The translations under genes were made by a program, and so were the position numbers. The notes beneath the pieces were generated by a model, which did not search any database, was not told the DNA's origin, and saw only the letters and a program-made list of their open reading frames with translations. Source: Lunularia cruciata (taxonomy: Eukaryota > Streptophyta > Marchantiopsida > Lunulariales > Lunulariaceae). From it: a stretch of 64,000 nucleotides of DNA. Numbering within the stretch: position 1 is the stretch's first letter; each line of letters opens with the position of its first letter. Positions 6,860-52,859 of the stretch are shown in pieces. Location: the NCBI GenBank assembly GCA_948567375.1, contig OX419756.1, positions 50,606,333 to 50,670,332 on the forward strand, given 5' to 3'.

Positions 6860-7376
6860 TAGCTACGAAGACCCTATGATGGGCTAGGTAGATCATATAG
6901 AGGTGTCACAAAAGAGTAATATTACTAATAGTACAGGAATCAAAAATAGCATAGAAACTTTAGAGCTAATTTTGGAGGCCTAAATGGATGAATTAGGCCT
7001 ACAAAATGCTTAACTTCTCCTCCCAATTGAGGAGAAGTCTAGCCTTATTGAGACCTTTCCAATAGTACCTCATCCATGTGATTTGGAGATTCATACAAGA
7101 AGATTCCCTAAAGATTCCCTCTGGTCAAAGATAGTTTGACCAACCAGATAGGATCAGAACCAACATATCACCCATGTATGGAACTAATCTAAGGGTAGAG
7201 CTCACTACCATGTCACCAATCCATTTATTTGATCTAAGGGTGGAGCTTCTTTTAGGGGAGTTCCCTTTGCTATATAATACAATCAAGGTGCTCCTTTGGA
7301 GTATCGGAGATTGAGTGAAGAGCTTTGTGTTTTCTTTTATGTTTCTCTTAAGGTCTTCTATCCTTGGAAGATTACA
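6860..7376 (+). mobile_element. Family C Ty3 LTR, plus strand (5' edge unresolved)
   Basis: The sequence from about 6860 aligns by eye with the reverse complement of 9644-10387, including the shared blocks GATTCCCTAAAGATTCCCTC and TTTGACCAACCAGATAGGA and a TATATAATA box near 7272. It ends in ATTACA at 7376. Two bases later comes GGTATCAAAGC, a primer-binding site of the initiator tRNA-Met type. The left edge fades out, so the start is approximate. An LTR supplies the promoter and polyadenylation signals of its element. This one leads into a decayed gag. Confidence 0.6.
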
Positions 7377-9009: not shown

Positions 9010-9643
9010 TCAATGAGAGAGTGTATCCAACACACTAGAATCCAAAATATGCCTCTTGTCATAGCTCTCCTTTTTTTTCCTTTGGGCTTGCTCCACTTGA
9101 ACCATAGCAACTGCTCTTGCCTCTTCCAACTCCATGAGTTGTTCCTTCCGTGACTTCTCTACATCACCTCCTTGTGCTTTCTTCAGTCTCCTATGAATGC
9201 TTTGGAAGATAGGAAGATCGAAGTGAATAGGTAGGGTATACTCAATACCATATACCAATTGAAATGGAGAATATCTGGTGGAAGTCTTCATGGTTGTCCT
9301 ATACTCACACAAAACTGCATGAATCCTCTTGTCCCAATGTTGTTTAGCCCCCTCTATTTCTACATCTTTGTCCAACATCATGCACAAGGTCTGATTGGTT
9401 CTCTCTGCCAAGCCATTGGAATTTGGCTTATAGGATGTAGTTACTCTATGTGTGATAGAGAAATGTTGTAGCATGGCTGTAGTAATGCTTCTTGTAAACT
9501 CTCCTCCTCTATCAAAAACTAACTCCAAAGGGCATCCAAACCTAGTGATAATGCGTTCATAGAGAAATCTACCAACTGCATATTCATTTTTGTCCCTCAA
9601 TGGTCTAGCCTCAACCCACTTGGTAAGGTAATCAATAACTATC
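9010..9643 (-). pseudogene. Ty3 integrase core fragment
   Basis: An open frame of about 211 codons on the minus strand reads as the DDE integrase core. It begins IDYLTKWVEARPL (first Asp). Next comes VFDRGGEF (second Asp) and, 35 residues on, NGLAERTNQT (the catalytic Glu). The D-x35-E spacing is canonical. The frame is uninterrupted until it ends after SYDKRHILDSSVLDTLSH, so the C-terminal part is lost. The N-terminal HHCC zinc finger is also missing because an LTR abuts the first Asp region at 9644. The enzyme would insert retrotransposon cDNA into the genome. It is better preserved than neighbouring relics, but truncated at both ends. It may belong to family C or to another Tat/Athila-like Ty3 family. 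Confidence 0.8.
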
Positions 9644-10387
9644 TGTATTACTCCAAGAACAAGAGAAGAGAGAAAACACAGATTGCATACTCAAACATTC
9701 GATGCCCCAAGAGAGCACCTTCTCTTTATTATATAGACAAAGAGGATCTCCTCCAAGGGAGCTCCACCATAGGATTAGGGACACAGATAGGTGACATGTC
9801 AGCAAGCTCCACCCTTGGATTAATTACTTGGATGGGTGACATGTCTGGTCTAGGTCCTATCTGGTTGGTCAAACAAGCTTTGACCGGAGGGAATCTTTTA
9901 GGGAATCTTCTTGTAGGAATCTCAGAATCACGTGAGTAAGGTACCATTGGAAATCTCTCGACGAGACAAAGCAGGGGGGAGGGAAAGGCCAGCCTTTCCT
10001 CCATTGGGGGGGGGGGGCATCTGCACATTTTCGAGGCCTAATTCATCCGTTTAGGCCTTCAAAATTGCCTTCAAAGATTTCAGGCATATTTCGGTTCCTA
10101 CTCTATTAGTAGAAGTCCCCTTTTAGTGATACCTGTTTTTGATCTGTTTAGTCCATCATGTGTAACATCCTTCCAGATGTTACCAAACCAATTCTCACCT
10201 TTAAATCATATGTCTAGCTATTGGTTCTAAGGTTCTCAAGTCTATTTTGGTTTTTGCACTATTAGTAGAAGTACTCTTTTGGTGATACTTCTATCTGATC
10301 TATTTCAACCATCATGTATAACATCATTCTAGATGTTACTAAACCAAATTTCACATCTAGATCATATGGCTAGCTCTTGGTATTACA
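9644..10387 (-). mobile_element. Family C Ty3 LTR, minus strand (744 bp, possibly solo)
   Basis: On the plus strand it starts TGTATTACTCC and ends GGTATTACA, giving TG...CA termini (TGTAATACC...TAATACA on the minus strand). Its interior matches the plus-strand LTR at 6860-7376. The five bases on each side are CTATC (9639-9643) and CTATA (10388-10392), a possible 4-of-5 target duplication. Inside is a tandem duplication of about 150 bp (about 10085-10387), each unit carrying TTCTACTAATAG. There is also a G12 run at 10006-10017 next to a GGAAAGGC/GCCTTTCC hairpin. The left flank is integrase and the right flank is family B, so this is a solo LTR or a recombination junction. Confidence 0.65.
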
Positions 10388-12000
10388 CTATAGCGATAAG
10401 GATGTCAAAAAACTGGTGTATTGCTAGTTAGCTCAATCCGAATACTAGGTCCATTCAGAGCACCCAAATCCTTCATACTGAAGGAAAAACAACTCGTGTA
10501 GCTCCTAAAATCCTCAAACTCTCAGTCTTTCCTCTCCAATAAGCTTGGGTCCAAGATCTGGCTCCCAAGTATCCTCGGTAAATGTCGTAGGAGTGGAAGA
10601 CATACTGATTGGCTGCTACATTGGGCCCTTGGGAGCAATAGTGTCATGCCCCTGACCACTAGAGGTCTTAACCTCTATGTGAAAAACTCCCTCCACTTTG
10701 GCTGCAAGCTCCACACGTCCTCTAGCTACATCCCAAGTGGACCAAGGGTGGAATCCAAGTAGCTTAAACTCACTTGGATGGACTCCAAATAGACCACTCT
10801 CCCTAGTAGCTACTGGTTGTGTCCCAAGAATACCATGTCCACTCTGTCCATTGCCCCCAGGATGTGCCTGAATCATCTTGATTGGCACAGGGCTCACAAG
10901 TGGTCGAGTGGTGATGCCTATCAAGCGCATCCTACGCTACTCTACCAATCCAAGGCTCATAATCCAGGTCAAACAGTTCAAATCCATAGCCTGACCTAAC
11001 TTCTGACACCTAGATGCCTCTAACATTGTTGGAACAATGATAATACTGATGCAAAAATCCATTGCCCACTCTCTCTCATCAGCATTGGGCTCCACCAACT
11101 ACTATAATTGTGAGTCCCAAACAAGTCTAGGTCCTCCCTCTCAAAAAGCATGAGAGCTTGGGAAACTCATGAGTGTGGGAAATGCGGATCTAGGCTATCC
11201 AACTAGGTTCACCATTGCCATAGGTGACCTATCAGCCACTACTACTGTCTGAGACTGACGCCCAACATCCAAGATATCATCAACAAGGATGTGGTCAAGT
11301 TACTAAATCCCATCATAAGCACACTGTAAAACCTCTTTGGGTAAGAGGTTTGTCCACCAAAGATAAAGATGGTAAGCCCGTGATCCCACTATGGCTGCAT
11401 CTAACAATACAATAGGTCCCATCCAAGAATTTGAAGTGTACTTACCACCACTTTGGTGCAAGAATCACTCATCAAAGGAACGTTCTCCAAAATGTGAGCT
11501 AGAGAAACGGACTGATGAACCTAGAGATGTTGTAGTATCCGTAACATCTCCCAAAACACACCAAAACAAGGATCTTGAAGACCTAAACCTCGGCCAGCAC
11601 GTGTATGTCCCTGACATGTCCATCCAAAAATCACCAAGTGAATAGGCCCATGTCTCTCCAGATCATGCGCCCTTAGTAAGGAAATGTTTGTTGGTAGGGC
11701 CTTCTAGTAACCTTTGACTGTTGACATCGGTAATAACTTTGGATACCAATAGGCCAAGTGTGCCACATGATGTAGAGAGACTCACCTAATAGTCTCATCT
11801 CTCACTATATACAAGTACCTCCATACTCATATACCCGCTTGTGATATCGCAGCTAGTCCGGTGCTAATCCCAACAAATAACTCCAATAGACATATCCCCT
11901 CTACTGGCTAATGGCAAGCAATGATTGTGGTATCTAGAGGTGTCAAAGTAATCAACTCTGGAGGCTCATCCTCACACTCATCTCCTGATGGTACGAAGGC
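10388..12000 (-). pseudogene. C5 cytosine DNA methyltransferase domain inside a Ty3 polyprotein (family B)
   Basis: Minus-strand frames read as a compact C5 DNA methyltransferase of about 304 codons from motif I to motif X. Motif I is LLELFVGISTGL (11854-11889), the AdoMet-binding loop. Motif IV is GWTCQGHTRAGRG; its catalytic Cys codon is 11614-11616, and Thr replaces the usual Pro before it. Motif VI is ILENVPL (11473-11493). Motif VIII is GSRAYHLYLWW (11354-11386). Motif IX is LVEPNADEREWAM (around 11069-11098). Motif X is LGQAMDLN (10976-10999). Motifs I-VI share one frame and VIII-X another, so there is one frameshift near 11425. About a dozen in-frame stops kill it. It lies downstream of gag/protease in the same orientation, and its frame runs on to a pre-RT segment (IELTSNTPVF near 10400). 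It is therefore part of the retroelement, not a host CMT/DRM gene. The intact enzyme would methylate cytosine C5. The target-recognition region between VIII and IX is short. Confidence 0.8.
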
Positions 12001-12490
12001 TCCACTCCAAGCTTGTTGTACCAATTGATCTGCATGCTACTGCAATGCCTCCTCTGAACTCCACAATGGAACATACAAGATGGATGGAACAATCCCACTC
12101 GTACTCCAAATCCAAGTGATCTCCTTTGCTATTGGATCTCCTTTGTGTTCTCCTCCAACAAGTCACCAGGCCAAGTAATTGCACCACTGAAAGCTAAAAC
12201 TGATGCTACCATGGTCTCGGATTGTAGTGAGCCAAGACTGCCACTACTGAAGCGTACTGGTAGGCAACATACATGTCCCTCAATAGACTGCTAACCTGGT
12301 CTATAAGAGGTTGTCTCCTCCTAGTAGTCAATATTGAAACCTGTGGGGTTTAACACTGCTCCCCCAACTAGCACATCATATGACTTAGCTATTGTTGCAA
12401 TAGCCTGAGCTCTCACCACCGAGCTATAAGTCGGATGACCAAGTTGAACCTAGAAAAAAAGCTCCCCACGTGTGATGTGCTATGTCAAAC
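12000..12490 (-). pseudogene. Linker between protease and methyltransferase (family B polyprotein)
   Basis: This segment bridges retropepsin and methyltransferase motif I. One frame reads SYDVLVGGAVLNPTGFNIDY (about 12310-12390). It resembles the C-terminal flap/ILG-type part of a Ty3 retropepsin, where VLVGGAVL would be the hydrophobic strand. Further on come VPLWSSEEALQ and a stretch rich in L/T (LITLTPLDTT) just before motif I. Several stops and at least one frameshift are present. It shows that the methyltransferase is joined to the protease side without an intervening LTR or promoter. Confidence 0.5.
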
Positions 12491-12492
12491 CA

Positions 12493-14660
12493 TCACCTAG
12501 AGATGTCTGGATCTAAAATGGACACCTCTCTACATCGGTCTTTCGTAACTCCAGACCAACTACTGTAGCCTTCTCCAACATAAGGGATTTGCGCACTAGA
12601 GTCTAACAAGACTCTCTGTGGTGTATAGACCTTCCTTGAAGGTCCCACCAAACGGAAAATACCCCTTTGGTTATCCAATAGGACAACACCAATTGTGAAC
12701 CATGCTCTCTCAAGGGCCGCTCTAGCTGACAACTCCTCCAGTCTAGCCGCTATTGCTTGCTTTAAGCCATTGGTTGTTGAACGGATCCCATGCTCCTCAA
12801 CCAAGTCAGCTCCACTATCAACCACCTCTATTATAGTAGTAGGAACCGCATCATCCCTACTCTCATAAAGCATGGCAGCCAACAGGAACACTGGGGCTAG
12901 GTCAACTCTCAATGTAAACATGTCACTGGCTGAAAACAAAGGGCACTGCATAATCAGCTGAGCAACCCCAAACATCATGCTAGACTTAGTCTGTGTTGTA
13001 GTAGGTGGCTGACTAGCAGGTAGTTGATCATGCACTCCATCACCACCTACCACACCTGCAATGGGACATCTAGGAGCCATGGATGTTGTTTGCAATGCCT
13101 CAGATAGCGTGAAAGACTTGGGAAGTCTAACCTGTCTCCCAACCTCTCTTCTTTGTGGGTCCAACTCCACTGATGCTCCTCTAGGCTCTAGAGCATGTAT
13201 TGCACTCCTAGTCATTGTTGCATATGCATCCATCTGTGTTGCTCTGCACATGAAGTCCAAAGCATCTCTATCACCAACATATGAGATGGAAGCCTTAACA
13301 CCCAAATCTGATCTCCTTTGAGCAATGGCCATACTAGCCAATCTTTGCTCCAACTGCTCAATCCAAGTAGCCATAGCTGTACCAGAAGTAAGGGCAAGTA
13401 TTACACCCCTACTAGGTGTAGATCCTCTACCACCACCTCTACCACATCGTCCTCCATGAATTGAAGCTCTTCTACTACCTACCATAGCAGCCCTACCACT
13501 CCGTAACTTCGGGTGTAGGTCAAAGCACCGGTCACTAGTGTGACCAAATCTGTGGCAATGCTCACACTACCTCTATGTTGGCTGTGATGCACCTGAGGTA
13601 TCAAGTCCACTACCTTGAGTACACTCTCTCCGATGGTGAGGTCCACCACAAGTCCAACAAGCAACACCACTATTCATTGGCTACTGTTGACCCAAAAATG
13701 AAGGTAAGTGTCTAACTCCACTAGCCCCTCCCCTCCACTTGCCCCATAGGATCTGGGCTATCCACCTTGTCCTCAAAAACCAACTGGGCATGGTGCACTC
13801 TAGAAGAAGTAACAATTGTGGATGAGGTCTCCCTACCAAATCCAGATGTCACCACTCTCTCCTCCTCCATGTTGAGCTTAATACGCTCAGCCAAACCAAA
13901 GACCACTACCAAAGTAGGCAAAGTAGCATGTAACAACATAGCATCACAAACTCTACATCGCAACTCCCTATCCAGTATCCCATACCAAAATTGGACTGCT
14001 TGGGTTTCAGTACCTCCCTATGAAACTGATCAGCCGCCTCATGCGAGTGTATGCCTTGCGTAGGCTCTCTCTAGCCTTCCACTAAAACTCCTGCAAGCTC
14101 CTCAGCTTGTCAATCCGTACTCCTTGGTAGTTCTGCCTCAAACACAAGAAGAACTCCACCATGGGGTTAAACCCCAATACCACACCACCTCCTGTACGAT
14201 ACCTCCACTCGTAGTAGCACTATCTCCAGCTAGTGCACCTCCACTAGCTCCACCAACACTACTCGAGCTAGAACTCGTAGGTACAGCCGATCTACTCCTA
14301 GCCACCAAACCTAAAGTGATAGAGACATAGTTTGGAGACCAATACTATCTCCATAACTCAATCTCCTCCAAATAAACTCTCCTGAACTCATGGTAGTCAT
14401 CCATCGGTGGACCCTCTAGATGTTGAAACAACCCCTTCCATGCCATGAAGGGTGTAAACAAAGTCGGTTTCCGCATCTACTGTAGATCATACCAACTATC
14501 AACCTCCTAGAAGAAGTCATCCAACTCAATGGTGCCCATTGTACCAGAGTAACGCCTAAGGCCTTTGGAGGCCCCATAAATCTTGTCCATGTCCCACAAC
14601 AATAGTGCAGACACACCAAGTGCACTCTCAATTGAATTAGCTCTTGTGTCAAACTCCAAC
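12493..14660 (-). pseudogene. Family B Ty3 gag and retropepsin
   Basis: A gag core is readable at 13720-14110: residues like YTRMRR, then AVQFWYGILDRELR and VFGLAERIKLNMEEE. Two zinc knuckles follow in the same frame: CWTCGGPHHRREC (13621-13659) and CEHCHRFGHTSDRC (13525-13566, a perfect CX2CX4HX4C). They bind the element's RNA. The frame then stays open for 330 codons (12493-13485), through a low-complexity Gly/Arg stretch and a coiled region. It ends with the retropepsin active site VLLDSSA (12591-12610), where the usual D-S-G has become D-S-S by one G-to-A step. Stops between the knuckles and a break after 12493 disable it. Two knuckles are more than most plant Ty3 elements have. Confidence 0.75.
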
Positions 14661-15689
14661 TTAGAGTCAATCTCTTCCTTCATTGGCACCTGAGATACAA
14701 GCTGATACCAAGTGCCCCTCCAAGTAAACCCACTACGCATTGCTGGGCTAACTCCTCTAGAATTCCCAATGAAATTTGTTGTGACAAAGTAACTGCAACT
14801 GCAATCACAAACCGGAACCACAAACTGCAACCGCAAGTATTCCACCAAGTGCCAACATCACCAAGTGCCAATACCAACGGAACACCACCCACTAATATAA
14901 CTCTAATAAAGATAACTACACTAGGCAAAAGGGCAACCTATAACATGCCATCACAACATGCACTCTCACGGTCTATAGGTCATCACTTCTTGCCTCACCA
15001 GAGAGAAACAAAGATAGTCTAACTGGTCATCACTCTGGCCTCACTATCGAGAGCACACCAGAGCACCAATGCTCAAAAGTTAGGGCACCTCACACAAACG
15101 TGATTCACAAACAAGAAGCATAGAATAGAGGAGGTCCAATCACAAGAAATCTAAACAAAAACACTCCATCTCATAAAAAAACACGGGACTGACTTTGCAA
15201 CCATTTGGCATTTGACATAAGAGAAGTTCGTATCTAAGTCCTAAACTACCAAGATGACTAAGAATGGGATCAAACTGCCTCTTCTAGCCAAAACTACAAG
15301 TGTATAGATAACAATGGCACAATCACTAGGACAACAAGTGAGGGTGGACCAATTGGCTAGGGCACCAGTCTAGGAACAAGAGATCTAGGAGTCAAACCCT
15401 GTTGTGCACAATCTAGTAGTATGGGCAGATTTTGCCAACCAATGACTAAGATCTACTCTAAACTAGCTAGCCTCACGCCAGTAAGCTGGCTTTCTGGCCC
15501 TTCTAGGTCTTTGTAGCCTCTCATAGCCCACAGCCCTATGCCTCGAAGCCTCAACGCTTCTGCACACCGTCTTAATGCCAAATCTGCATCAAGCAATGAG
15601 CTCTTGCACACCAAGGAAAAACTGAACTTCAATCGAGCTACAAACAATCCACGAGCTTGGAGATACCACCAACACTCAAAGTTCATGCA
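14661..15689 (-). other. Family B leader / 5' internal region
   Basis: Lies between the minus-strand LTR and gag. The open frames here (113 codons at 14507-14848, 82 codons at 14680-14928) show no domain and probably belong to the untranslated leader or the extreme gag N-terminus. A block at about 14930-15170 resembles 44395-44600 and 22370-22620, both inside family D copies. This suggests shared leader sequence. No clear primer-binding site was found, so the LTR/leader border is approximate. Confidence 0.4.
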
Positions 15690-16240
15690 CCCGATTTCCC
15701 TTTGATTTCACTTCTTTGATGTAATCAGATTGTTTACAACTCTCAAATACACTCAACTCAGATCAATACTTGATCTATCACTCTATAAACTGCCAACAAC
15801 TGGACATTGATTACAGTCAAGCCACACCCACTCTAGCTAAGAGAATCAGGTGACGCTCGCCAAACTCTGTCCACCATAGATAAGAACTCGAAGGCTCAAC
15901 ATCAGAGAAGTGAGCTCTCTGGAGCTGCACTTCAAAAGTATACCCCTGGACTCGAGCTAGGTCTAAAACCCTAATGGTCCCACTGACGGCACACTCGACG
16001 GTGAAAATGGTGCAAAGTGACGATGGGCCCCACCGTGAAGTCAATACCCTGAACACAAAATCTGACCACCAGAAAGTAGTCTTTGAGAATCTGAAATAAC
16101 CTGAAACTAGCTGAAATACTCTAAGTACTATCACTGCAACTCCATTGTCCGAGCAATCTAGATGCGACACTACAAATGGTGTCACATATGGATCAATGTA
16201 TGTTATGTACAAACACATTTGTCAAGGAATGAACAAAAGT
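15690..16240 (-). mobile_element. Family B Ty3 LTR (5' LTR of the minus-strand element)
   Basis: On the minus strand this matches the plus-strand copies at 27585-28080, 39411-39640 and 56676-57450. Shared blocks are GAGCTCACTTCTCTGATGTT, GAGCCTTCGAGTTCTTATC, TTAGCTAGAGTGGGTGTGGC and CAAAGACTACTT. It precedes the leader, gag and methyltransferase in the correct order for a 5' LTR. The outer edge near 16240 is only a homology limit, since no TG...CA end or target duplication could be fixed. A 133-codon frame here is incidental. Confidence 0.6.
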
Positions 16241-27584: not shown

Positions 27585-28230
27585 ATGTCATAACATTTAT
27601 AACATTGAAGCTAGTTTGCTAGGATACTAGAGTGGTGGTTTTGGCAGTCATCATATTATGAATAGTTTCTCAAGGACTACTTAGTGCCGGCTAGATATGG
27701 TCCTAGGTCTATTGATTACTTTGTTGCCATCGTATTATCAATAGTTGCTCAAGGACTACTTAGTGCCGGCTAGATATGGTCCTAGGTCTATTGATTACTT
27801 TGTTGCCATCGTATTATCAATAGTTGCTCAAGGACTACTTAGTGCCGGCTAGATATGGTCTTAGGTCTATTGATGACTTTGTTGCAATTGCTGTTTGCAT
27901 TGTTAGATGTACCATTAGGGCTGGATTTCTGGCTGTTCCAAAGGAGGTATACCTCCAAGTGCTGCTCTACAGAGCTCATTTCTTCTATTTTGAGCCTTCG
28001 ATCTATGCTTTTTGCTATGGTGAATAGAGACCAGCGAGTGTCACCTTTATTCTCTTACCTAGAGTGGGTGTGGCTTGACATTAACTCTGAGGCACTCTAG
28101 CACCCGGCCTCTTGATCTTTGCTCACCATAATGCATATCATGTACTTGGAGTAGATGGCTTAACTACTAGGTAGAGTGCTATGTGTATCACTTTGGAATT
28201 TGTGTGTTATCTATATGAATTATGGTTCTA
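27585..28230 (+). mobile_element. Family B LTR fragment, rearranged
   Basis: 27585-28080 matches the middle and end of the family B LTR (AGAGCTCATTTCTTC, GAGCCTTCGATC, CTAGAGTGGGTGTGGCTTGAC). From about 28085 it continues with blocks that lie at the start of the LTR in the 56676 copy (TAGCACCCGGCCTC, TTGGAGTAGATGGC). The order is thus middle-end-start. The copy also contains a 79-bp triplication. No family B coding sequence adjoins it. Confidence 0.6.
27650..27890. repeat. 79-bp tandem triplication inside LTR fragment
   Basis: GGACTACTTAGTGCCGGCTA occurs at 27674, 27753 and 27832, an exact 79-bp period. Copies 1 and 2 are almost identical and copy 3 differs slightly. Single-copy equivalents lie in the other family B LTRs (for example near 39508), so the expansion happened in this copy only. 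Confidence 0.9.
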
Positions 28231-29897: not shown

Positions 29898-30260
29898 GCG
29901 CTTTCTTGCACTATTCTGTTTCTCGCGTGTTTATAGTAGCCTGAGAAGTAGAAGCATCTTCGCCCGAGGGTCTCCAAGCTCACAATAGTTTTAGGAAGCT
30001 AGTCAGCTGATTTTGTATTCATTTCTCTGTTCCTTCTGGTTGCTCGAAAACCTGCAGCTGTTTCCTATTTTCCCTTTCAGTTTCTGGGAAATCGTAGGCT
30101 GCCGATCGGTCTCGATACATGCTCAGTCGTCTAGATGGTGTAAGATTGCCGCTTTCCACCTCTAACATCGTGTTTGATGTTCTGGGAGAAAACGTTCCTT
30201 CATCTTTGCTGAAGGTAGTATCTTTTGCGGGCCTTCTTGTGCAGATTCGCTCTTTATTCA
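29898..30260. other. Stretch before the kinase exon (probable intron or 5' region)
   Basis: Contains a 66-codon frame at 30119-30319 in another frame that is not convincing. A pyrimidine-rich tract ending TTTATTCAG at 30260 is a plausible 3' splice site for the kinase exon. Confidence 0.4.
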
Positions 30261-30300
30261 GTGGTACTGGAAGCGTGCAGCGAACATTCAAATTTGCTGG

Positions 30301-31284
30301 TTTTCGTACAGAGAGCTGAAGACAGCGACAAATAACTTCTCAGAGCATAAGACAGTGGGTTGTGGGAAATCCGGCCAAGTTTACAAAGGTGTCTTGTCGG
30401 ATGATCGCATTGTGGCCGTGAAGAGGTACACGGAAGTGATTGGTCACTCGCTGGAGGAGATCCTGTACGAAGTTTTCATTCACCGAAGTTTGCCGAAATC
30501 TTCGAACTTGGTGAAATTAATCGGATTTTCATCTTACGAACAGGATCCCCTTCTTGTGTACGAGTATATAGAAGGCGGCAATTTGGAGCAGCACCTGCAA
30601 GGTCATCTTCTAGGAGAGAAACTGACTTGGAATGAGAGGTTGAGTATTGCCATTGATGTGGCTGATGCTATTTCACAGCTCCATTACAACAGGAAGTTCC
30701 CCATATATCACCGTGATATCAAGTCTTCCAATATTCTGCTGGACGACCATCGACAAGCAAAGTTGGCCGATTTTGGGATCGCTGCAGCTGTTTCGGCGAA
30801 GAAAGCTAGAACCTACTGCCAGACGAAAATGAAAGGTTCACGTGGGTACACGGACCCTCACTATGAAAGCACAGGAAAGCTCACAGACACGACCGATGTT
30901 TACAGTTTTGGGGTAGTTTTGATGGAGCTCGTCACGAGTTTGAATGCCGGGGACCCTTCACGATCGAAGAATTTCCTCCCGGATCTCGTGATGGAGATGT
31001 ACAGTCTGGAGCGGGTGGAAGAAATTGTTGATGAGTGTATCCTGGCCCCGTGTCCATGCAAGCAATGCCTGAAGATACTAATAGAAGAAGTGATCGAGCT
31101 GGCAGTCTTGTGCTGTTCGCAGGATCCTTCGAAGAGACCAAAAATTAGTGAGCTAGCCGAGAAATTACGGCTAATCCAGCTAGAACAGAAGATGAGAAGT
31201 ATGGAAGCAGAACTAAGGGATGAGAAGAGAAGCATGGAGGTCGTAGAGAAGGATAAGACCCCAAGGAAAAGTCATCGTCAATGA
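30301..31284 (+). CDS. Receptor-like protein kinase, WAK-like kinase domain (3' exon)
   Basis: The frame reads FSYRELKTATNNF from 30301, the usual entry to plant receptor-like kinases, then a complete Ser/Thr kinase domain to a stop after 31284. Counting from 30355 as residue 1: the glycine loop is GCGKSG (2-7); the ATP lysine is K23 in VAVK; the helix-C Glu is E39; the catalytic loop is YHRDIKSSN (118-126); DFG is at 139-141; the P+1 region is GYTDPHYE (164-171); D181 and R261 are also present. All catalytic residues are intact, so it is probably active. It phosphorylates Ser/Thr of partner proteins, normally at the plasma membrane in wall or defence signalling. A short charged coiled tail follows residue 275. 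No in-frame ATG exists between the upstream stop (30175) and the domain, so the extracellular and membrane parts must lie in upstream exons or be lost. Splice acceptor candidate: 30260. Confidence 0.85.
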   Translation, partial: FSYRELKTATNNFSEHKTVGCGKSGQVYKGVLSDDRIVAVKRYTEVIGHSLEEILYEVFIHRSLPKSSNLVKLIGFSSYEQDPLLVYEYIEGGNLEQHLQGHLLGEKLTWNERLSIAIDVADAISQLHYNRKFPIYHRDIKSSNILLDDHRQAKLADFGIAAAVSAKKARTYCQTKMKGSRGYTDPHYESTGKLTDTTDVYSFGVVLMELVTSLNAGDPSRSKNFLPDLVMEMYSLERVEEIVDECILAPCPCKQCLKILIEEVIELAVLCCSQDPSKRPKISELAEKLRLIQLEQKMRSMEAELRDEKRSMEVVEKDKTPRKSHRQ

Positions 31285-39675: not shown

Positions 39676-40028
39676 TTAAAAGACTAAGGAAAGAAAGAGT
39701 GGAAGATCACATTGGGACTCTCAAGAAAAAAACTCCTGATATCTAGCATGAGCTTGGGCTTTGGTATTTATAGAGAAATATACAAGGCACTTAGGAAGCT
39801 TATAAGAAAACTTCTTTTAGAAATTACCTACTTGGCATGCAAGCTAATCTAGCTAGGAAGCTTCCTCTCAAAAATTACCTACTTGACATACATAGTACCT
39901 AATCTTTGGAAGGTACTAAGAAGCTTTCTAGATGCTGCTACAAAATTCTCAAAATTTCTTGGCTAATTTGGCCTATTTGCTAGCTCATTAGCCTCTAATA
40001 ACTCATTTGCTAACTCCATATTATTACA
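39676..40028 (-). mobile_element. Diverged family A-like LTR, minus strand
   Basis: The reverse complement starts TGTAATAATATGGAGTTAGC and contains TCTATAAATACCAAAGCC and ends with GTCTTTTAA before a mutated primer site (GATATTAGAG). It is inverted relative to the LTR at 38554-38987. It lies immediately before the family B coding sequence at 40029, so it interrupted that element. Confidence 0.65.
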
Positions 40029-40900
40029 ATGGTGGTGGCTGATAGGTCAAAAATGGCAATGGTGAACCTTGTTGGGTAGCCTAAAGTTGATTTTCCCACA
40101 CTCATGAGTTTCTCAAGTTCCCATGCTTTTTGAGAGAGAGGTATTGGACTTGTTGGGACCAAAGTTATAGTTTAGTTAGTGGAGCCCAATGCCAATGAGA
40201 GAGTGGGTAATTAGTTTCCATACTATTATTATCGCTATTTCAGCAGTGTTTGAGGCATCCAAGCATAAGATGTTAGGCCAGGCTATGGACTTGACTAGTT
40301 AACCTAGATTGGTTGAGAAATGTAGAATGTACTTGATTAGCATCACCACTCAAACACTTATAAGCTCTATGCTTATCAAGATGATTTAGGCACATGATGG
40401 GGGAAATGGACCAAGTAGGCATGGTACTGATGGGACACAATTGGTGACTACTAGTGAGATTGGTCTACTTGGTACATCTAGGTGAGCAACGTCTACTTGA
40501 GATACACCCGTGGTCTACTTAGGATGTAGTTAGAGGATGTGCAAAGCTTGCAGCTAGAACAAAGAGAATTTTTTTCTTTGAGGTTGTGGACTATATCAAT
40601 TGGGAGCATGATATCACTACTCCCAAGGGCACAATGTAGTAGCTAATCAATGCCTACTCCACTCCTACATTAGTTATAGAGGACTTGGGAGCTAAATATT
40701 GGACCCAAGCTTATAAGAGGAGAAAGATAGAGTTTGGAGATTTTTGAGGAGCTACATGAGTTGTTTTACCTTTAGTATGAAGGATTTGGATGCTTTGAAA
40801 GGACTTGGTATTTGAATTGAGTTGACTAGTAATACACTAATTTTTTAATATCACTATAAATATAATGACATGGATAGAGCCTTGACTTAAAGCTAGAGTA
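40029..40900 (+). pseudogene. Methyltransferase C-terminal part, second family B copy
   Basis: Aligns with the reverse complement of 10390-11230. Readable blocks are VVADRS and MAMVNLVG, FPTLMSF then SSHAF, LVEPNANERV (40176-40205, motif IX) and LGQAMDL (40273-40293, motif X). The frame then passes through a linker to TSNTLIF-like sequence near 40830. Motifs I-VIII are missing because the minus-strand LTR at 39676-40028 cuts in. Two stops (TAG 40077-40079, TGA 40131-40133) are at the same sites as stops in the minus-strand copy. It confirms that the methyltransferase lies directly before RT in this family. Confidence 0.7.
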
Positions 40901-41107
40901 GAGACTTTTTTGAAGCTAGTTTGGTAGAGATTTCACATAGAGAATGTGCTCCAACTATGATGATGCTAGCAAAGAAGGATATGCATTGCAAGTACTCAAA
41001 TAGACAAATATGTGGAGATTATTATCCTATTAACCAATAGACTTAGGCTTACTAGTATGCTATGCTTATAATAGAGGAGATTGTTGATGCAATTGGGCAT
41101 GCAAAGG
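40900..41107 (+). pseudogene. Family B reverse transcriptase, first part
   Basis: Reads GDYYPIN, then YAML and EEIVDAIGHAK up to 41107. This is the region of a Ty3 RT just before the first catalytic Asp. The nested family A element splits it at codon level. Removing that element and one target copy joins GHAK directly to VSNTLDL at 48397. Stops are present. Confidence 0.7.
41103..41107. repeat. Target-site duplication AAAGG (left)
   Basis: AAAGG at 41103-41107 directly precedes the LTR of family A copy 1. The same AAAGG follows the other LTR at 48392-48396. A perfect 5-bp duplication is the normal size for Ty3 integration and dates both LTRs to one event. Confidence 0.9.
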
Positions 41108-41537
41108 TGTAACAATATGGAGTTTAGCGACGAAGTTAGTTGGGCTTACAAAGTTAGTCGGGCTTACAAAGTAGCACATAAGACAAATTAGCCTAGAATA
41201 TTCCAGAAGTATCTAGGAAGCTTCTTGGGAAGCTTCCCAGCTAGCTTAGCTTGCACTTTAGGTAAGTAGCTTCTAGAAGCTTCCAACTAGCTTAGCTTGC
41301 ATACCAAGTAGGCGGCTTCTAGAAGGAAGCTTCTTGAGAAGCTTCCTAGTTAACTTGGCTTGCACTCTAAGAAAGCGGCTTGAGAAAGCTTCTTGAGAAG
41401 CTTCTCAAGAGCCTTGTATGCTACCTATAAATACCAAAGCCAAAGCTCATGCTAAGCATTCGGAGTTTTCTCTCATTCAAGTGTCCCAATGTGAGTTTCC
41501 ATTCTCCTATTTCTCTCCTTGGTCTCGGTCTTTTACA
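41108..41537 (+). mobile_element. Family A copy 1, 5' LTR (430 bp)
   Basis: Starts TGTAACAATATGGAG and ends GGTCTTTTACA. A TATAAATA box lies at 41426-41433. Upstream of it are GAA/TTC arrays: GAAtaTTCcaGAA (41196-41208) and TTCtaGAAgcTTC (41271-41283) are perfect three-unit heat-shock elements. Two-unit sites lie at 41317-41324, 41326-41333, 41338-41345 and 41397-41404. Transcription probably starts about 30 bp after the TATA box. The four LTRs of the two copies share this layout. Confidence 0.9.
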
Positions 41538-41538
41538 A

Positions 41539-41550
41539 TGGTATCAAAGC
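41539..41550 (+). other. Primer-binding site, family A copy 1
   Basis: TGGTATCAAAGC lies one base after the LTR end. It pairs with initiator tRNA-Met with one mismatch (copy 2 has the perfect TGGTATCAGAGC). Confidence 0.85.
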
Positions 41551-41929
41551 AAGAATGGGATGGATGGAATTTATGGACCACCAAATCCACTTCCGCCAAA
41601 CCATTTGGATTTTCATGTCCAGATATTACCCAAGCACCGCTTCACACAATTCATCACCTCGCTTTGGGCAAGATTTTCTACATATGATCACCGTGTTTGA
41701 AGAACCCTTGATACTTCCAGTTGTCACTTATGGAGAGAGGTGGACGTGCTGTATCTATGTGTTAATGAATTAGATAAATTGGGAGTAGGATAGAGTAGTA
41801 GCTATGACGGCAATACCGGACGTTATCCTTGCGATGTAGCAACAAATCGAGCACCTTACTCAATTGTTGGATGAACAAGACCAACAACAATGAGAACATA
41901 TAGAGAGAGAGCACCAGTCCGAGATGGAG

Positions 41930-42660
41930 AAGATTGTATTTGATTTCCAAAGCCCAAGGTGTTTGAAGGCAAGAATCTTTTGGGCACAATGGAGAATTTT
42001 GTGTTTGAGTGCAAACGTTACTTCAAAGCCACCAATCTTCAAGATGGATGGAAACAGATTCTCTTGGCTTCTAGCCAATTGGATGGTGTGGCAAAACCTT
42101 GGTGGCAATTCCGAGTGGAGCGAGCTAAACAACAGATTGTTGCACCAATCTTGACATGGACAAAATTCAAGGATGCAATACTTGGTCGATTTCAAACTAT
42201 AAATGCAACCCGAGCCGCACAAGATAAATTGGGGGAGTTGAAGCAGATTGGCTCTGTAAGAGGCTCCATCACACAATTTCAGAACATCATCATGAAAATT
42301 CTAGATATACAAGAAGGAGAAGTTGTGGATCGATTTGTGCGGGGATTGAAGTCACAAACCAAATTGGAAGTGACCATGCAAGAACCACAAAACATAGAAG
42401 AAGCCATGCAATTGGCTGAGCGCTTTGATTTGTTGGTTGCAACAACTTGGTCTTGACCTTGACTTACACCAAGCTTATTAGTACAATATGCATAGGAAGA
42501 ACCAACGCTAATGGAGATTGATGCTATCCAACAGAGGCCACTTAGTGCAACAGATAGAGAAAGATTACAACAAAATAGAGGTTTTTTTATTGTCACCAAG
42601 TTGGACATTGCATTGCTGAATGTCTACTTAGGAGTGGGCAATCTCAACAAGTTACCCAGA
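41930..42660 (+). pseudogene. Family A copy 1 gag
   Basis: The 165-codon frame 41959-42456 holds the Ty3 gag core: FEGKNLLGTMENFVFECKRY, then AKPWWQF, then LTWTKFKDAILGRF and EGEVVDRFVRGL. After a break, RPLSATDRERLQQNRG leads into a decayed zinc knuckle that has lost its cysteines. It would have formed the particle shell and bound RNA. The same region in copy 2 keeps a partial knuckle. Confidence 0.85.
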
Positions 42661-42733
42661 TGGTGTTTGTGGAACCGAATGATTAGGGAAATAAAGAATC
42701 CCAGTAAGAGATTCCAAGCCGCCTATTGGGAGC

Positions 42734-43099
42734 TTGATTAGTTCCAATGGGATTGAAGGCTCGACCTATACAAGTTTGCTTCACTTGCAAGGTACAATAT
42801 CTAATCGGGGTTGCAAGATTTTGGTTGATTTTGGAAGTTCAGAGAATTGGATGTCTATGCAAGTAGCAAAGGAATTGGGTATTCCTATCAAGCCAGTGAT
42901 TGAAAGTAGTTTCATGATGACGGATGGTAGAAAGGGTTCTGCATTCCGCACCTCATATCCTATTACCTTCAAGATTGGGAAGGAGTATTTGGAGTGTATG
43001 AGGTTTGTAGTGGCACCTCTAAACTATGATATCATTTTGGATCTACCTTGGCTTGAACATCATAAGGTTCAATTTGATTGGACCCGACGCCAAATTTGA
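42734..43099 (+). pseudogene. Family A copy 1 retropepsin
   Basis: A 121-codon open frame holds ILVDFGSSENWMS, the aspartic protease active site. The usual D-S-G is changed to D-F-G (Asp kept). Further on, YDIILDLPWLEHH corresponds to the ILG-M-x-WL signature. The enzyme would process the Gag-Pol polyprotein. It lies between gag and RT, as in all chromoviruses. Confidence 0.85.
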
Positions 43100-43429
43100 G
43101 TACAACACCAAGGTAGGAATTTTTGATTAGGTTGTCTGGCACCTTTGAGTAAGACACCTAAGAATAATTAGTTCCAAGATAGGAAGTTTGTCAAGAAGGT
43201 AGTCATAGAGCAAACCTTGAAGGGAGTGGAGTCCCAAGATGAGAAGTTTACCAAGAAGGCAACCATGGAGCGAGCTTGGAGAAGAGATGAGTCCCTGGAA
43301 GGGAAGTTGGTTAGTAAAGCAACCATAGAGCAAGCTTTGGAGGAAGATAAGTCTGTATTTGCGGTGTGGATCAAGCCAATTGCACAAGAACAATCCAAGG
43401 AAGGCCAAGAGCCTCATTAAGCAATGGTT

Positions 43430-44227
43430 GATCGGATAGTTCAGGAGTTTGCAGATGTGTTTCCGGATGATCTGCCAAAGGGATTACCCTCCGATTGAGG
43501 TATGCTCTTCAAGATCAAGTTATTGCCAGGGAGTACTCCAGTGAGTAGACCGATCTATCAGCTCTCACCAAAGGAGTTGGAGGAGTTGCAAACAACACTT
43601 ATAGAGTTATTGGAGAAGGACTTCATACAACATAGGACCTCTCCTTGGGGAGCACTAGTATTATTTGTTCTAAAGAAGGATGGAGGACTTTGCTTTTGTA
43701 TTGATTATCATGGGCTCAAGAAGCAAACTGTGAAGAATGCATATCTCTTGCTTGGGATCAATGACTTGCTTGATCAACTAAGTGGAGTATGCTACTTTTC
43801 CAAGTTAGGTCTTTGTAGCGGCTATTGGAAAATTCCTATTGATAGAGAGGATGTGCAAAAGATTGCCTTTTGTACAAGGTATGGGCATTTTGAGTGGAGA
43901 GTTCTATCTTTTGGACTCATTAATGCTCCAGTAGTCATCATGGATCAAATGCATTGGGTGTTGGATGGACTTTTGGATTGGTTTGTGGTAGTGTTCTTGG
44001 ATGATATTTTAATTTATAGTAACATAGAGGCAAAACACGTGAATCATGTGCAAGAAGTCCTAAGACGACTACGACAATGGAAATTTTATTGCAAGAAGTC
44101 AAAGTGTGCCTTTTGGCAGAAGGAGGTTACCTTCTTGGATCATAAGATCTCATAAGAGGGGATCAAGTGGAAGAAGAGAAAATCAAGGCCAATATTGGCC
44201 TACTCCAAAGGATGCTACAGAAGTACG
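43430..44227 (+). pseudogene. Family A copy 1 reverse transcriptase
   Basis: The 217-codon frame 43502-44155 covers most of the RT palm and fingers. It has PIYQLSPKELEEL, then KDFIQHRTSPWGA, then CIDYHGLKK, then LSFGLINAP and the catalytic VVFLDDILIYS (the YxDD box, here FLDD). In GVCYFSKLGLCSGYW the first catalytic Asp of S-K-L-D-L has become Gly, so it could not polymerise DNA. The frame ends at DHKIS just before family D interrupts the element. Confidence 0.9.
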
Positions 44228-45900
44228 GTATCGTACTTTCCTTTTCTCTCTCTGGGAACACATAGGGTGCCTAGCTGTGGAGACTACAGATCAAAGGCTA
44301 GAGGTAAACCCGTAATGACTTGACAAAACATGCTTGTGACCCTTATTGCCGGAACCTTCTTTTCTCATGACTAATATTCTTGCTATTGGGAAGGATAGTA
44401 CCGGGCAACTTGACTTATCATCACAACACGCACTCCTGGTCTGCTGGTCATCACTTCCAACATAACCAAGGAGAAATACACAACACTCTTAGAAGGAAAT
44501 AATCTGAGCGCAACGCTCACACACCAATCCAAGCCAACTGGGCATACAAACAAGCATACAAGTACAGAGAGGATCCAATCACAAGAAAAAGGCAACAACT
44601 CTCTATAATTTTTGTTGGGAAAGAGCTTCAGAGCCTTTGTGCTCTGTCATCAAGCTCATTCCAACCTATACTCCAAGTCTCCTCCCATCTGTACTTCAAA
44701 TCTCAACAAATTCCTACTTCATGTGGGGATTTTCTATGTCTTTTTGATGGGGCAAACTCTGTGCAGCTCATATGCAAGTAGCTATTTCTACATAGCTTGG
44801 ACTCAAGTGATCTAGGATTCAATGAAAAGCCTGTAAGATAAGCTTTCCAATGATATAAAATACACTTCAATCAGATTACTACAACTCTCCTGAAAATCTC
44901 TCAAAGTTGGCTAGGGTTTTTTTTGACTTCACCCTAATTTCGAAATCTTCTTTTTAGGGTTTGCTCTTGGTTCTTGGCAAATTTTCCCCACATTTCTGAT
45001 TCAGAAATACACTTGATTCTCACAAACACTCTGGCAACCATAAACTCTAAATCATAGTCACATGACATGAGACTTGATATCCAATCAAGATGAAAGGAAA
45101 ATTTGCTCTACCGAACTTATGATAGTATTTTTAGCATGGTGTTTTGCATCAGATCTCACTCTGCACAAATCTAGAACCACCCAAATTTTCCACAATAGCT
45201 TTTTTTGTTTTTTTCTAACCTCTTGCAAAATTTCGTAGCCTAATCCAACTCCAGTCTTTAGATGTGGATCAATTCCTGAGCTGGGCTAACTTGTGAGCTC
45301 TACAGACCCAGGTATACTTGATCCAAGACCCTGATTTCTCTATTTGAAAAATTCACATGAAAATTTCACACAGAGGAGCTAAACCTATCCACCAAAAGCT
45401 CTAGAAATTTTCATGAGGAAATTCAAGCTGCAACTTGGAGAGTGACCAAAACTCCAAACCTGATCATTATCTCTTCTCCAACACCTTACATCCCATAAGC
45501 TTCAACTTCAATCAATTGAATATGATTTGAAATTGACCCAAAACTAGAATTTATTGTGCTCAGTATTGTAATAACATTGTCTTCTCTCCAATTCCACTGA
45601 CAGATAGTGAAAAAGTCTCAAGAAGCTCCCTGAATTGACTACTTTGTGCTCCTGGGTATGAATTCAACCCCCATTCACTCAATTGATCATATCCCTCTCA
45701 TACTAAGCTCAAATCGCGTCATTCATCAAAGCCCTCAAAATGATAAGATTGTAACCCACATGGCCAATCACATACATGTACATAGATGGCTCACATGGCA
45801 ACATCTCATCCGTCGGATCTAGCATGCAACCTACCCCACTAACGTGGAGATAAACTATGATAAGTCACTTTTTACGAGCTACGCAAATCACAACACGACA
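44228..45900. mobile_element. Family D non-autonomous insertion, copy 2
   Basis: About 1.67 kb absent from family A copy 2, where AAAGTACG is followed at once by TGCATTCAATGG. Here AAGTACG (to 44227) and ACGGGCATTCAATGG (from 45901) flank the extra DNA, with ACG or a diverged longer target repeated. There are no open frames with domains. It shares blocks with 22340-23700 (for example GAGGATCCAATCACAAGAAA-like, CCTAATCCAACT, TGGATCAATTCC). It is a mobile non-coding element inserted after family A copy 1 had landed. Confidence 0.7.
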
Positions 45901-46480
45901 ACGGGCATTCAATGGATTGGCCAATTTTTACCGACAGTTCATCCATTATTATGCTCATGTGGCTGCACCATTGACAGACCTCTTGGGAAAGAACTTGAGC
46001 TTCTAGTTGACCACCAAGCATGAAGAAGCATTCCAGAAGTTAAAGCATATGGTATATTCAAGACCCATTCTTCAACCATATGATCCTCAACTACCTTGTG
46101 TGGTTGATTTTGATACTTCTAACTTTGCAATTGGAGCCGTGCTGCAACAAGACTTCCCAGATGGACTCCATCTCATTGCCTTTGTGTCTTTCCGACTCAA
46201 TATGGCTGAACAAAACTACTCTACTCAAGATCAAGAACAACTTGCAATGGTATATGCTACCAAGGTATGGAGGCATTACCTCTTGGGGAAACAAGTGATC
46301 ATACGAACTGATCACAAACCATTGTTGCAGACCTTACACTTGGAACACATGAAGAGTCGACATCATTGATGGGAGGAACAACTCCTACTATATGACATCA
46401 AACTTGAGTACAAACCAGATTGGTTCCATGTCATCCATGATGCTTTATCACGACAACCTGATTTGAAGTCTCTTACTCTC
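45901..46480 (+). pseudogene. Family A copy 1 RNase H
   Basis: After FNGLANFYRQFIHYY-type sequence (end of RT), the 120-codon frame 46007-46369 reads EEAFQKLKHMV, then VVDFDTSNFAIGAVLQQ (catalytic Asp), then YSTQDQEQLAMVYA (the Glu region) and IIRTDHKPLLQTL (catalytic Asp). RNase H degrades the RNA strand during reverse transcription. The frame is good but ends early at RHH-stop. Confidence 0.85.
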
Positions 46481-46599
46481 ATCACAACGGCAATTTCAAC
46501 AGTGTGTGTTGACTCCAAGGTCCAAAACAAGTTTCAGTCAGCTCTACACCAAGATCCCTTCTTCCAAATGGTACATGGTCACCTTACGGCATGCAATAT

Positions 46600-47700
46600 G
46601 GAGTACAACACCTTCTCCATCAAGGAGTGCCTTTTATTCCATGAGGACTGGATCTATGTTCCAGCTAAAGGTGATCTTTGACTTCTACGCCTTCAAGAAG
46701 CCCATGATTTACCCATTGCTGGTCACATGGGTTTTGGACAGACCATGGGTACCCTCCAACGTCAATAGTGGTGGCCCAACATGACATGAGATGTTTGAGA
46801 ATTTTTCCGATCGTGTGAGAGCTGCCAATGTAACAAGGCCAGCAACCGGAAGCCGAGTGGACTCCTTCAACCACTCGCCGTTCATCTATTTGCTGGGAGC
46901 ATGTGAGCTTGGGTCTCATCACATCTTTGCCAAAGACAAAACAAGGACACACCGCAATTGTGGTGTTTGTGGATTAGCTTAGTAAGCAAATCCACTTGGC
47001 ACTAACCTGTGATATCGTGGATACTCCAACCTTAGCACAAATCTACTTCAACAATGTCTTCAAGCATCATGGGATGCCACGTGTATGCATCTCCAACCAT
47101 GATCCTTGTTTTATCAAGAAGTTTTGGCAAGCACTCTTCCAAATACTTGGCACCAACTTACTTTGTCCACGGCCTATCATCCTTAAACTGATGGACAAAC
47201 CAAATGTGCAAATCATACATTGGAGGATATGTTGGGTGACTTTGTCAATGTCCACAATACCAATTGGGATGAATGTCTTGTAGCGGCAAAATTTGCCTAC
47301 AACAATTCCAAACAGGCAAGCACCGGATTTTCTCCTTTCTTTCTCAATTTTGGCCAAGATCCGCTTGTTCCAGATTTTCTTCTTGCTCTCCCTCCATCTC
47401 AGGTTCCTCATACTTCTACATTCTTGAGCACAATATCCCACTCTCTCCAACAAGCCAAGTCTCACCTCCTTGTTGCTCAGAATCACCAAAAACAATATGC
47501 GGACCACCATCATCATGATCTCACTTTTGAAGTTGGTGATAAATTCATGCTATCCTCTAGTAACCTCCCTCTCCCATTTGATAACCAAGTTCATAAACTT
47601 GCACCTAATTGGATAGGACTCTTTCATATCACCCAAATTGTCTCTCTTGTTGCTTATTGACTTGCCTTGCCTTGTCACATGCGTATCCATCCTGTCTTTC
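46600..47700 (+). pseudogene. Family A copy 1 integrase
   Basis: Pieces in several frames. The HHCC zinc finger lies around 46700-46850 (GHMGFGQTMGTLQ, WWPNMT, CESCQ). The core is around 46900-47300. The 146-codon frame 47220-47660 holds WDECLVAAKFAYNNSKQAST, then SPFFLNFGQDP, then the C-terminal KLAPNWIGLFHITQIVS (the GPY/F-like module). Frameshifts are frequent. It would insert the cDNA into chromatin. Confidence 0.85.
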
Positions 47701-47759
47701 ATGTTTCCAAATTTAAACCCTTTGTTCCTAACCCCTCTTCCTTTTCCTCTTGAGTCCAA

Positions 47760-47935
47760 CCTCCTCCTCTTCTTGTCCCTATCAATGATCATGAGGAGTA
47801 CAAAGTTGATCATATCCTTGTGCGTCGCCATATTCAACAAGGCCGTTGCCAACATACGGAGTACAAGGTCCTTTGGAAAGGGTATCCCCTTCGCGATGCC
47901 ACATGGGAACCTCTTTCTCACCTCTAGAATGAATT
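47760..47935 (+). pseudogene. Family A copy 1 chromodomain
   Basis: A frame after the integrase reads PINDHEEYKVDHILVRRH, then EYKVLWKGYP, then DATWEPLSHL. This is a chromodomain with the aromatic cage positions Y, W and W present (47787-47929). In chromoviruses it binds methylated histone H3 and steers integration to heterochromatin. It is one of the best preserved parts of the element. Confidence 0.9.
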
Positions 47936-48002
47936 GACGGCCATCTTGTAATTCAAAGCTTCACTGGCAACGAGGACGCCACCAACTAGCGGCGGGGGAA
48001 TA

Positions 48003-48391: not shown

Positions 48392-48396
48392 AAAGG

Positions 48397-49488: not shown

Positions 49489-49489
49489 G

Positions 49490-49501
49490 TGGTATCAGAG
49501 C
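49490..49501 (+). other. Primer-binding site, family A copy 2
   Basis: TGGTATCAGAGC lies one base after the LTR, the perfect complement of the 3' end of plant initiator tRNA-Met apart from the CCA end. Confidence 0.9.
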
Positions 49502-50640: not shown

Positions 50641-50699
50641 TCTATTGGGAGCTTGATTAGTTCCAACGGGATTGAAGGCTCAACCTACGCAAATTTGTT

Positions 50700-52720: not shown

Positions 52721-52859
52721 TCATCAAAGCGGCAATTTCAATAGTATGTGTTGACTCCAAGGTCCAAAACAAGTTTTAGTCAGCTCTACACTAAGATCCC
52801 TTCTTCCAAAATGGTACATGGTTGCCTTAGGGCATGTGATAAGGAGTACAACACCTTCT

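Follow-up and report, generated by a model that had tools for sequence, protein, structure and literature searches.

The DNA described here is a 64,000-nucleotide stretch of Lunularia cruciata contig OX419756.1, which we call the window; all coordinates are positions within it. On its minus strand, at 10372-14755, lie the remains of a Ty3 element (copy 1) that hosts, in this order, a gag segment, zinc knuckles, a protease (PR), a C5 DNA methyltransferase (MTase), a connector and a segment preceding the reverse transcriptase (pre-RT). These parts were traced by tblastn with homologous proteins and with the open reading frames (ORFs) of a relative, L007, that is introduced below. A second copy (copy 2) lies on the plus strand at 40017-56609, outside the finding of the earlier note that had drawn attention to this locus. 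Both window copies are dead. We are nearly certain that the feature in copy 1 is a decayed, unpermuted DNMT3-like C5 methyltransferase, situated between the protease and the pre-RT segment of a Ty3 element.

The MTase domain occupies 10940-11907 (minus strand) and was delimited from the translated frames and from homologues. It contains motif I LELFVGISTG (11886-11857), motif IV GWTCQG (11625-11608, with the Cys at 11616-11614), motif VI ENVP (11487-11476), motif VIII SRAYHLYLWWTN (11383-11348), the motif IX region VEPNADEREWAMDF (from 11095) and motif X LGQAMDLN (10999-10976). The motif IV Cys and the motif VI Glu are retained; Thr stands for the Pro of motif IV, and the His and both scored Arg of motif VIII are altered. 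The domain is spread over two frames, with a switch near 11420-11450, and has 10 premature stops, leaving no single working frame. Read through with X at the stops, it matches 79 proteins, the best with E=3.4e-120, 61% identity and 100% query coverage. Thus the frame reading and the homologues bear out the claim, made from the sequence alone, of six C5 MTase motifs in canonical order on the minus strand.

The plant homologues that are identified by name are all from bryophytes, i.e. Calypogeia fissa, Sphagnum, Marchantia polymorpha, M. paleacea and Riccia sorocarpa. One further homologue, P0019, comes from the record of a bacterial metagenome-assembled genome (MAG; Obscuribacterales). As a control, 134 reversed homologues produced no tblastn matches to the window at 1e-3 with the low-complexity filter on. 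A comparison with the Pfam profile PF00145, which the earlier note had proposed, had a divided outcome. The window pieces alone reach at best E=0.0018 and 18.2 bits, under the Pfam cut-off of 22; a 60-residue open piece of the domain scores E=0.11 and the C-terminal piece has no Pfam matches. The relatives P0098 (35.2 bits), P0104 (28.9 bits) and L007 (45.9 bits) are above the cut-off.

The zinc knuckles, the retropepsin-like segment and the pre-RT segment flank the MTase, all in one orientation. The M. polymorpha proteins P0102, P0104 and P0108 are colinear with 14755-10655 in tblastn, and the Riccia protein P0040 extends the match to about 10372, where the decayed copy is broken off. This colinearity confirms that the MTase lies downstream of zinc knuckles and retropepsin and leads into a pre-RT segment, although the element exceeds the extent first claimed for it (10388-12000), with a gag match that begins near 14755. 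The gag-like segment (13853-14755, minus) aligns with residues 32-295 of P0108 at 41% identity. Two CCHC zinc knuckles, CWTCGGPHHRREC and CEHCHRFGHTSDRC, were read from the frames at 13525-13680 (minus) and align with the CCHC region of L007; the stretch with the first knuckle scores no better than E=0.14 against zf-CCHC in Pfam. The retropepsin-like segment (12147-12750, minus) matches L007 ORF1 in two frames, up to residue 533 in one and over residues 529-660 in the other, as well as P0102 and P0104. It has a frameshift near 12571-12584 and reads DSSAQ where the relatives read DSGAQ, and a Pfam scan of this window ORF gave no protease match. A TAG at 10616-10618 (minus) ends the gag-PR-MTase frame, as placed by alignment with L007 and copy 2, and the frame then continues towards the pre-RT segment FSMKDLGALNGPSIRIELTSNTPVF (10372-10600, minus), which matches residues 12-85 of L007 ORF2 and P0040 (64% over 36 amino acids). 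Over all matched codons copy 1 has 31 stops (21 TAG, 9 TGA and 1 TAA).

A good example of an intact element is L007, a 9285-base contig (CADCWO010000201.1) recorded in an uncultured Synechococcales MAG. From its content we infer that L007 is a eukaryotic contaminant, and P0019 is likely the same kind of contamination. The first and last 127 bases of L007 are identical, presumably a circular assembly over a collapsed long terminal repeat (LTR). ORF1 has a gag-like N-terminus, CCHC knuckles, a protease and the MTase (PF00145, 6.8e-12), and in ORF2 Pfam finds reverse transcriptase (RT), RNase H, integrase and a PHD finger, in that order. L007 is therefore one relative with both frames intact, gag-PR-MTase and RT-RNase H-integrase-PHD, and with an in-frame TAG dividing MTase from RT. 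The best match of its RT in the PDB is yeast Ty3 (6.7e-100). With RT-RNase H followed by integrase, and with an RT nearest to that of Ty3, the element is a Ty3/Gypsy LTR retrotransposon. L007, the Marchantia proteins and copy 2 together support the proposal that a Ty3 element carries its own C5 MTase.

When the MTase region of L007 was compared with long proteins, by scoring the 8000 candidates that share most words with it, at least 55 further proteins were found, including KFL_009030040 of Klebsormidium nitens (P0121), Calypogeia fissa and three from Marchantia polymorpha. Domains were mapped in 134 proteins and the two L007 ORFs (136 entries), and the MTase is present in 135 of these. There are two layouts. 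In layout A the MTase follows the protease (39 entries) or precedes the RT (11 entries); in layout B it follows RNase H (8 entries) or stands immediately before the integrase zinc domain. P0121, as annotated, has the order PR-MTase-RT-RNase H-integrase, with part of the MTase missing and EHV in place of ENV.

PHD fingers were found in 11 of the 136 entries, many of which are too short to reveal one: ten are of layout B and the eleventh is L007, of layout A. The best solved matches of the L007 PHD finger include PHF12, Cph2, UHRF1, CHD4, KDM5, PHF21A and AIRE, several of which are readers of unmodified histone H3 tails. Chromoviruses are Ty3 elements with a chromodomain after the integrase. The present family resembles them in having a chromatin-reader-like module after the integrase, but has a PHD finger in the chromodomain's place: scans of L007 ORF2, P0112, P0126 and copy 2 gave no chromodomain match, and a PHD finger is present in each. 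The layout B elements P0126 and P0112 have extra C-terminal sequence beyond the PHD finger.

The kinship of the MTase was assessed with a profile of 14 relatives searched against the PDB. The best match is DNMT3A (4.7e-19), and the top 29 of the 58 entries with E<=10 are DNMT3A, DNMT3B or DNMT3C. These are followed by 4onj (1.2e-9; labelled DNA methyltransferase, and which we take to be tobacco DRM), DRM2 (1e-6), HaeIII (2e-5) and DNMT2 types (7.5e-4 at best); the labels DNMT1 and CMT are absent from all 58. Judged by these matches, the MTase appears to belong to the DNMT3 group, and its closest solved relatives are DNMT3 enzymes. A predicted structure of P0001 is fairly confident (predicted local distance difference test, pLDDT, 77.2; predicted template modelling score, pTM, 0.82). 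We also considered DRM identity; plant DRM is likewise DNMT3 kin. The motif order I, IV, VI, VIII, IX, X is unpermuted and the enzyme is therefore not a DRM, a group described as rearranged in passages of PMC5890265. A bacterial or phage origin is unsupported: six viral-contig loci matched over only 34 to 100 residues (31-53%), and among five genome-contig loci four are from Streptomyces and distant, with two Streptomyces rows far outside the others in the first tree described below.

Across 67 aligned rows (the 66 of the first tree plus P0121) the catalytic Cys is kept in 65, the motif VI Glu in all 67 and the motif VI Asn in 61. Two rows in which the catalytic Cys is absent and the six, all in the Klebsormidium clade, that have His for the motif VI Asn count against the mechanism that we favour below.

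The first MTase tree was built from MTase stretches of at least 270 residues (66 of 135 entries) and left out P0121; for the second, P0121 was added, while the two Streptomyces rows and a further 14, near-duplicates for the most part, were taken out by hand. The root rests on a long-branched DNMT3A fragment, native plant DNMT3 genes being absent from the trees, and layout B forms one clade (100/99 in the second tree) while the layout A rows do not form a single one. The window copy groups with liverwort and Sphagnum rows and some others in a 12-row set (100/100), and the Klebsormidium clade lies outside a 31-row set (96/97) that unites the window-copy group with L007. Layout B is again one clade in a tree of RT-RNase H (12 rows, 96/97); in an integrase tree (16 rows) the layouts separate at 84/87 only. 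This history fits a single relocation of the MTase within an old lineage, and repeated capture might also explain it.

The stop between the MTase and RT frames deserves further description. In L007 ORF1 and ORF2 share one frame, divided by one TAG with CAATCA directly after it; the TAG of copy 1 (10618-10616) precedes CAGCCA, and its frame runs on towards the pre-RT segment. A passage of PMC3441728, citing another paper, names CARYYA behind a stop codon as an important factor in read-through. Counting the candidate sites themselves, 3 of the window's 2340 TAGs precede a CARYYA, as do 2 of the 190 in L007. The RNA 3' of the L007 TAG is far more stably folded than its shuffled versions (z=-3.96). 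Copy 2 retains the TAG at the aligned position, with TAGCTA behind it, so that CAR is not kept. At the protein level ORF1 ends at a matching point in further relatives, with ...ASPKVFA in P0003, P0006, P0066, P0068 and P0075 and with ...LSATK in P0080, P0081, P0083 and P0084. We predict from these sequences that the TAG is read through, and consider this quite likely. Some observations argue the other way: the fold 3' of the copy 1 TAG is ordinary (z=0.08), the leaky-stop context comes from two loci and one decayed locus, and 11 relatives have MTase and RT within one predicted protein. One of these, the Riccia gene model P0040, has a short connector (71 residues), which may have been spliced over the stop. 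If the stop is leaky, the MTase would be made with Gag, in excess over RT.

Copy 2 (plus strand throughout) has the order MTase, RT, RNase H, integrase, PHD finger and is split by two nested Ty3 elements. The C-terminal part of the MTase and the connector (40017-40555) were found by tblastn with MTase homologues, and the DNA at 40026-40852 is 75% identical to copy 1 at 11248-10401, across the MTase end, the connector and the pre-RT segment. The remaining parts were placed by L007 ORF2: pre-RT and the start of RT at 40720-41109 (residues 36-165, 39%), RT at 48393-49016 (residues 164-386, 43%; RVT_1 8.7e-15), RNase H at 54679-55124 (44-54%; RT_RNaseH 4.6e-5, 24.0 bits against a cut-off of 24.8), the H2C2 region and integrase core at 55243-56223 (residues 571-901, 44-69%), and the integrase C-terminus with the PHD finger at 56220-56609 (residues 906-1034, 42%). 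The PHD finger matches PF00628 over profile positions 12-47 of 47 (1e-5, 25.9 bits, above the cut-off of 24); the integrase piece 55747-56223 alone has no Pfam match. There are 38 stops in the 1045 matched codons. As pseudogenes, the window copies are therefore mute on present activity.

The match to L007 ORF2 breaks at residue 165 (41109) and restarts at 164 (48393), and breaks again at residue 386 (49016) to restart at 386 (54679). Nested element 1 lies at 41108-48391, with the 5-bp duplication AAAGG, and nested element 2 at 49018-54677, with GAGTA/AAGTA (one mismatch); both are on the plus strand and have TGT...ACA LTRs. Both belong to one family: in two parts of them that were compared, about 91% of the aligned columns agree. 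A probable LTR fragment of the MTase element lies upstream of copy 1 (15791-15960, minus) and was found by blastn to 57081-57151 and 57346-57440, downstream of copy 2; these fragments, the LTR ends being unmapped, are 77% identical over 96 bases and 79% over 72 bases. For neither window copy was a complete LTR pair seen. The sequence at 27957-28079 is a 79% match to 15932-15816 and may be a further LTR remnant.

Some other features of the window can be listed briefly. The broken end of copy 1 adjoins an imperfect 157-base tandem duplication (79%) at 10070-10381. Beyond it is an open integrase-like ORF (9013-9690, minus; rve 5.1e-7, 30.3 bits, just under the cut-off), with an inverted pair of about 490 bases, 71% identical, on either side (6876-7335 and 9671-10159). 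We considered this ORF as the 3' part of copy 1 and rejected it: its match to L007 covers 142 residues at 35% identity, and other DNA lies between, so that it probably belongs to another Ty3 element. An intact kinase ORF at 30178-31284 (plus; homology at 30181-31281) is 91% identical to MpRLK-Pelle_WAK_LRK10L-3 of Marchantia polymorpha, 73% to Riccia fluitans and 63% to Calypogeia fissa. The earlier note had taken the family for one of land plants, and the 91% match agrees with this; it also suggests that the host is a complex thalloid liverwort close to Marchantia, and perhaps another species than M. polymorpha.

How strongly is the MTase constrained? We compared hand-picked sets of 11 ORF1 proteins (55 pairs) and 11 longer elements. 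In the former, mean pairwise identity is 0.60 for the MTase, 0.62 for the protease, 0.46 for gag and 0.35-0.39 for linkers and tail; as a sequence, then, the MTase is conserved to nearly the same degree as the protease. The longer elements speak for weaker constraint: MTase identity is 0.42 against 0.47 for RT (lower in 43 of 55 pairs), 0.42 against 0.53 for RNase H (lower in 43 of 45) and, a slight difference, 0.41 against 0.44 for integrase (lower in 12 of 21).

Precedents for such elements exist. Those that the earlier note named, in dinoflagellates and Klebsormidium, are real and are reported by de Mendoza et al. 2018 (PMC5890265), passages of which present KnitGypsy-Dnmt3 as an independent acquisition specific to the K. 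nitens lineage. Like the present family, KnitGypsy-Dnmt3 is described there as a Gypsy-type LTR element with an unpermuted DNMT3-like domain in its polyprotein. The K. nitens protein P0121, which may be one of the copies named in that paper, is homologous and has the PR-MTase-RT order of the bryophyte elements. The window family differs in that its hosts are bryophytes and that its branch ends the MTase frame at a leaky-looking TAG; the main text of PMC5890265 makes no mention of PHD, Marchantia or moss. The legend of Fig. 4 in that paper gives KnitGypsy-Dnmt3 a DIRS-like arrangement of repeats, whereas the window shows no complete repeat pair of the MTase element with which to compare it. SymbioDIRS-Dnmt3 and SymbioLINE-Dnmt of Symbiodinium, from the same paper, are likewise retroelements with a C5 methyltransferase, but by their descriptions in its passages they are set apart by tyrosine recombinase or long interspersed nuclear element (LINE) ORFs, whereas the window family has a Ty3-type integrase. 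Streptophyte and dinoflagellate retrotransposons with DNMT3, of the LTR Copia and DIRS types, are also mentioned in passages of a 2025 paper (PMC12344493).

Our search of titles and abstract openings in the open-licence literature found no case of a retrotransposon-borne MTase in a bryophyte, which fits the suggestion that such a family is little described; nor did it turn up a printed account of such elements being recognised in bryophytes, of their PHD finger, of a leaky stop or of the second layout. The sequences themselves are not new: the proteins are in sequence databases already, the majority entered as hypothetical or unnamed. What is added is that MTase-bearing Ty3 elements extend the published KnitGypsy-Dnmt3 kind to bryophytes.

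What might the enzyme do for the element? The explanation that we favour, by a modest degree, is that the MTase is packaged with the particle and methylates either complementary DNA (cDNA) or the insertion site. The MTase would be made within a Gag-PR-MTase precursor, ahead of the leaky UAG in this branch, and would therefore be packaged with the capsid. Inside the particle it could methylate double-stranded cDNA. Alternatively, it could methylate insertion-site DNA once the integrase-PHD module has bound the tails of histone H3; given that several matches of the PHD finger are readers of unmodified H3, integrase may be steered to such chromatin. Either way, new copies would be born methylated and quiet, doing less damage to the host and hidden from the triggers of de novo silencing, and might pass for host DNA that is already silenced. 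The role on cDNA or the insertion site, taken separately, seems to us plausible but falls somewhat short of an even chance. For the DIRS type, passages of PMC5890265 discuss cDNA methylation and a slowing of retrotransposition.

More tentatively, and with clearly less confidence, we suggest that one old Ty3 lineage, spread over bryophytes, Klebsormidium and further hosts that are probably algae, carries a DNMT3-like writer together with a PHD reader of the unmodified-H3 type, rebuilding the pairing of catalytic domain and ADD found in animal DNMT3. Here the writer would be made at Gag level through UAG readthrough, packaged, and would methylate cDNA before or at integration. Two results weigh against these proposals. 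KnitGypsy-Dnmt3 gave no methylation in a yeast test, which its authors call inconclusive (passages of PMC5890265), and the layout A protein P0105 has 147 residues past the integrase core with no PHD match.

The MTase might instead be an effector that acts in trans on host chromatin or genes, e.g. on silencing controllers, and not on the cDNA of the element. Production at Gag level through the leaky TAG would make the enzyme abundant, and the PHD finger is similar to the fingers of chromatin proteins, among them PHF12, UHRF1, CHD4 and KDM5. In this branch, however, the PHD finger is at the integrase end and not beside the MTase, and packaging as part of a polyprotein would favour action on cDNA. 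We regard this alternative as unlikely, though worth keeping in mind.

A similarly low probability attaches to self-limitation, in which the MTase would methylate and silence the chromosomal copies of its own element in trans, tuning copy number. The pattern of decay bears on this. Observed over expected CpG is 0.27 in copy 1, 0.08 and 0.06 in copy 2, 0.34 and 0.33 in the nested elements and 0.83 in the kinase ORF. The level of C[AT]G relative to expectation is 0.26 in copy 2, 0.54 and 0.45 in the nested elements and 0.87 in copy 1, where it is hardly lost. Moreover, copy 1 has 8 of its 10 MTase stops at positions that code for Gln or Arg in the majority of 7 relatives, which is the change expected from C-to-T decay. 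These CpG and CHG losses and the Gln/Arg-to-stop changes fit the decay of methylated cytosines, whether methylated by the host or by the enzyme of the element, and to that extent the CpG depletion of both copies and the CHG depletion of copy 2 agree with self-limitation. That said, copy 1 is scarcely CHG-depleted, and depletion of both kinds is seen in the nested elements, which gave no MTase match. The MTase copies also look older, so host methylation explains the depletion equally; for CpG it could do so alone. The differences between copies 1 and 2 are spread about equally over the three codon positions, and point therefore to plain neutral pseudogene decay.

Methylation of genomic or primer RNA, in the manner of DNMT2 on tRNA, is improbable: RNA methylation is raised for the LINE type in passages of PMC5890265, but structures of the DNMT2 type match our profile far worse than DNMT3A does. 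Less probable still is that the enzyme protects its host cell from other DNA, e.g. that of DNA viruses, to the benefit of the carrier. This has been proposed for transposon-borne methylases in passages of PMC6338049, where the argument rests on an absence from land plants that the bryophyte cases contradict at least in part. Finally, the broken, multi-frame state of the window copies might suggest a host DNMT3 or DRM pseudogene beside Ty3 debris and not a gene of the retroelement; this is refuted by the two copies that share MTase-to-pre-RT DNA at 75% identity and by relatives that carry the MTase at the same place inside the coding region of the element.

Plants silence transposons chiefly by cytosine methylation, yet this family carries an enzyme for that very modification, conserved about as well as its protease. 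The bryophyte cases weaken the view of the Klebsormidium acquisition as a private one, and add a probable leaky stop and a domain resembling chromatin readers. What a retrotransposon gains from DNA methylation could be asked in Marchantia, which is in standard laboratory use.

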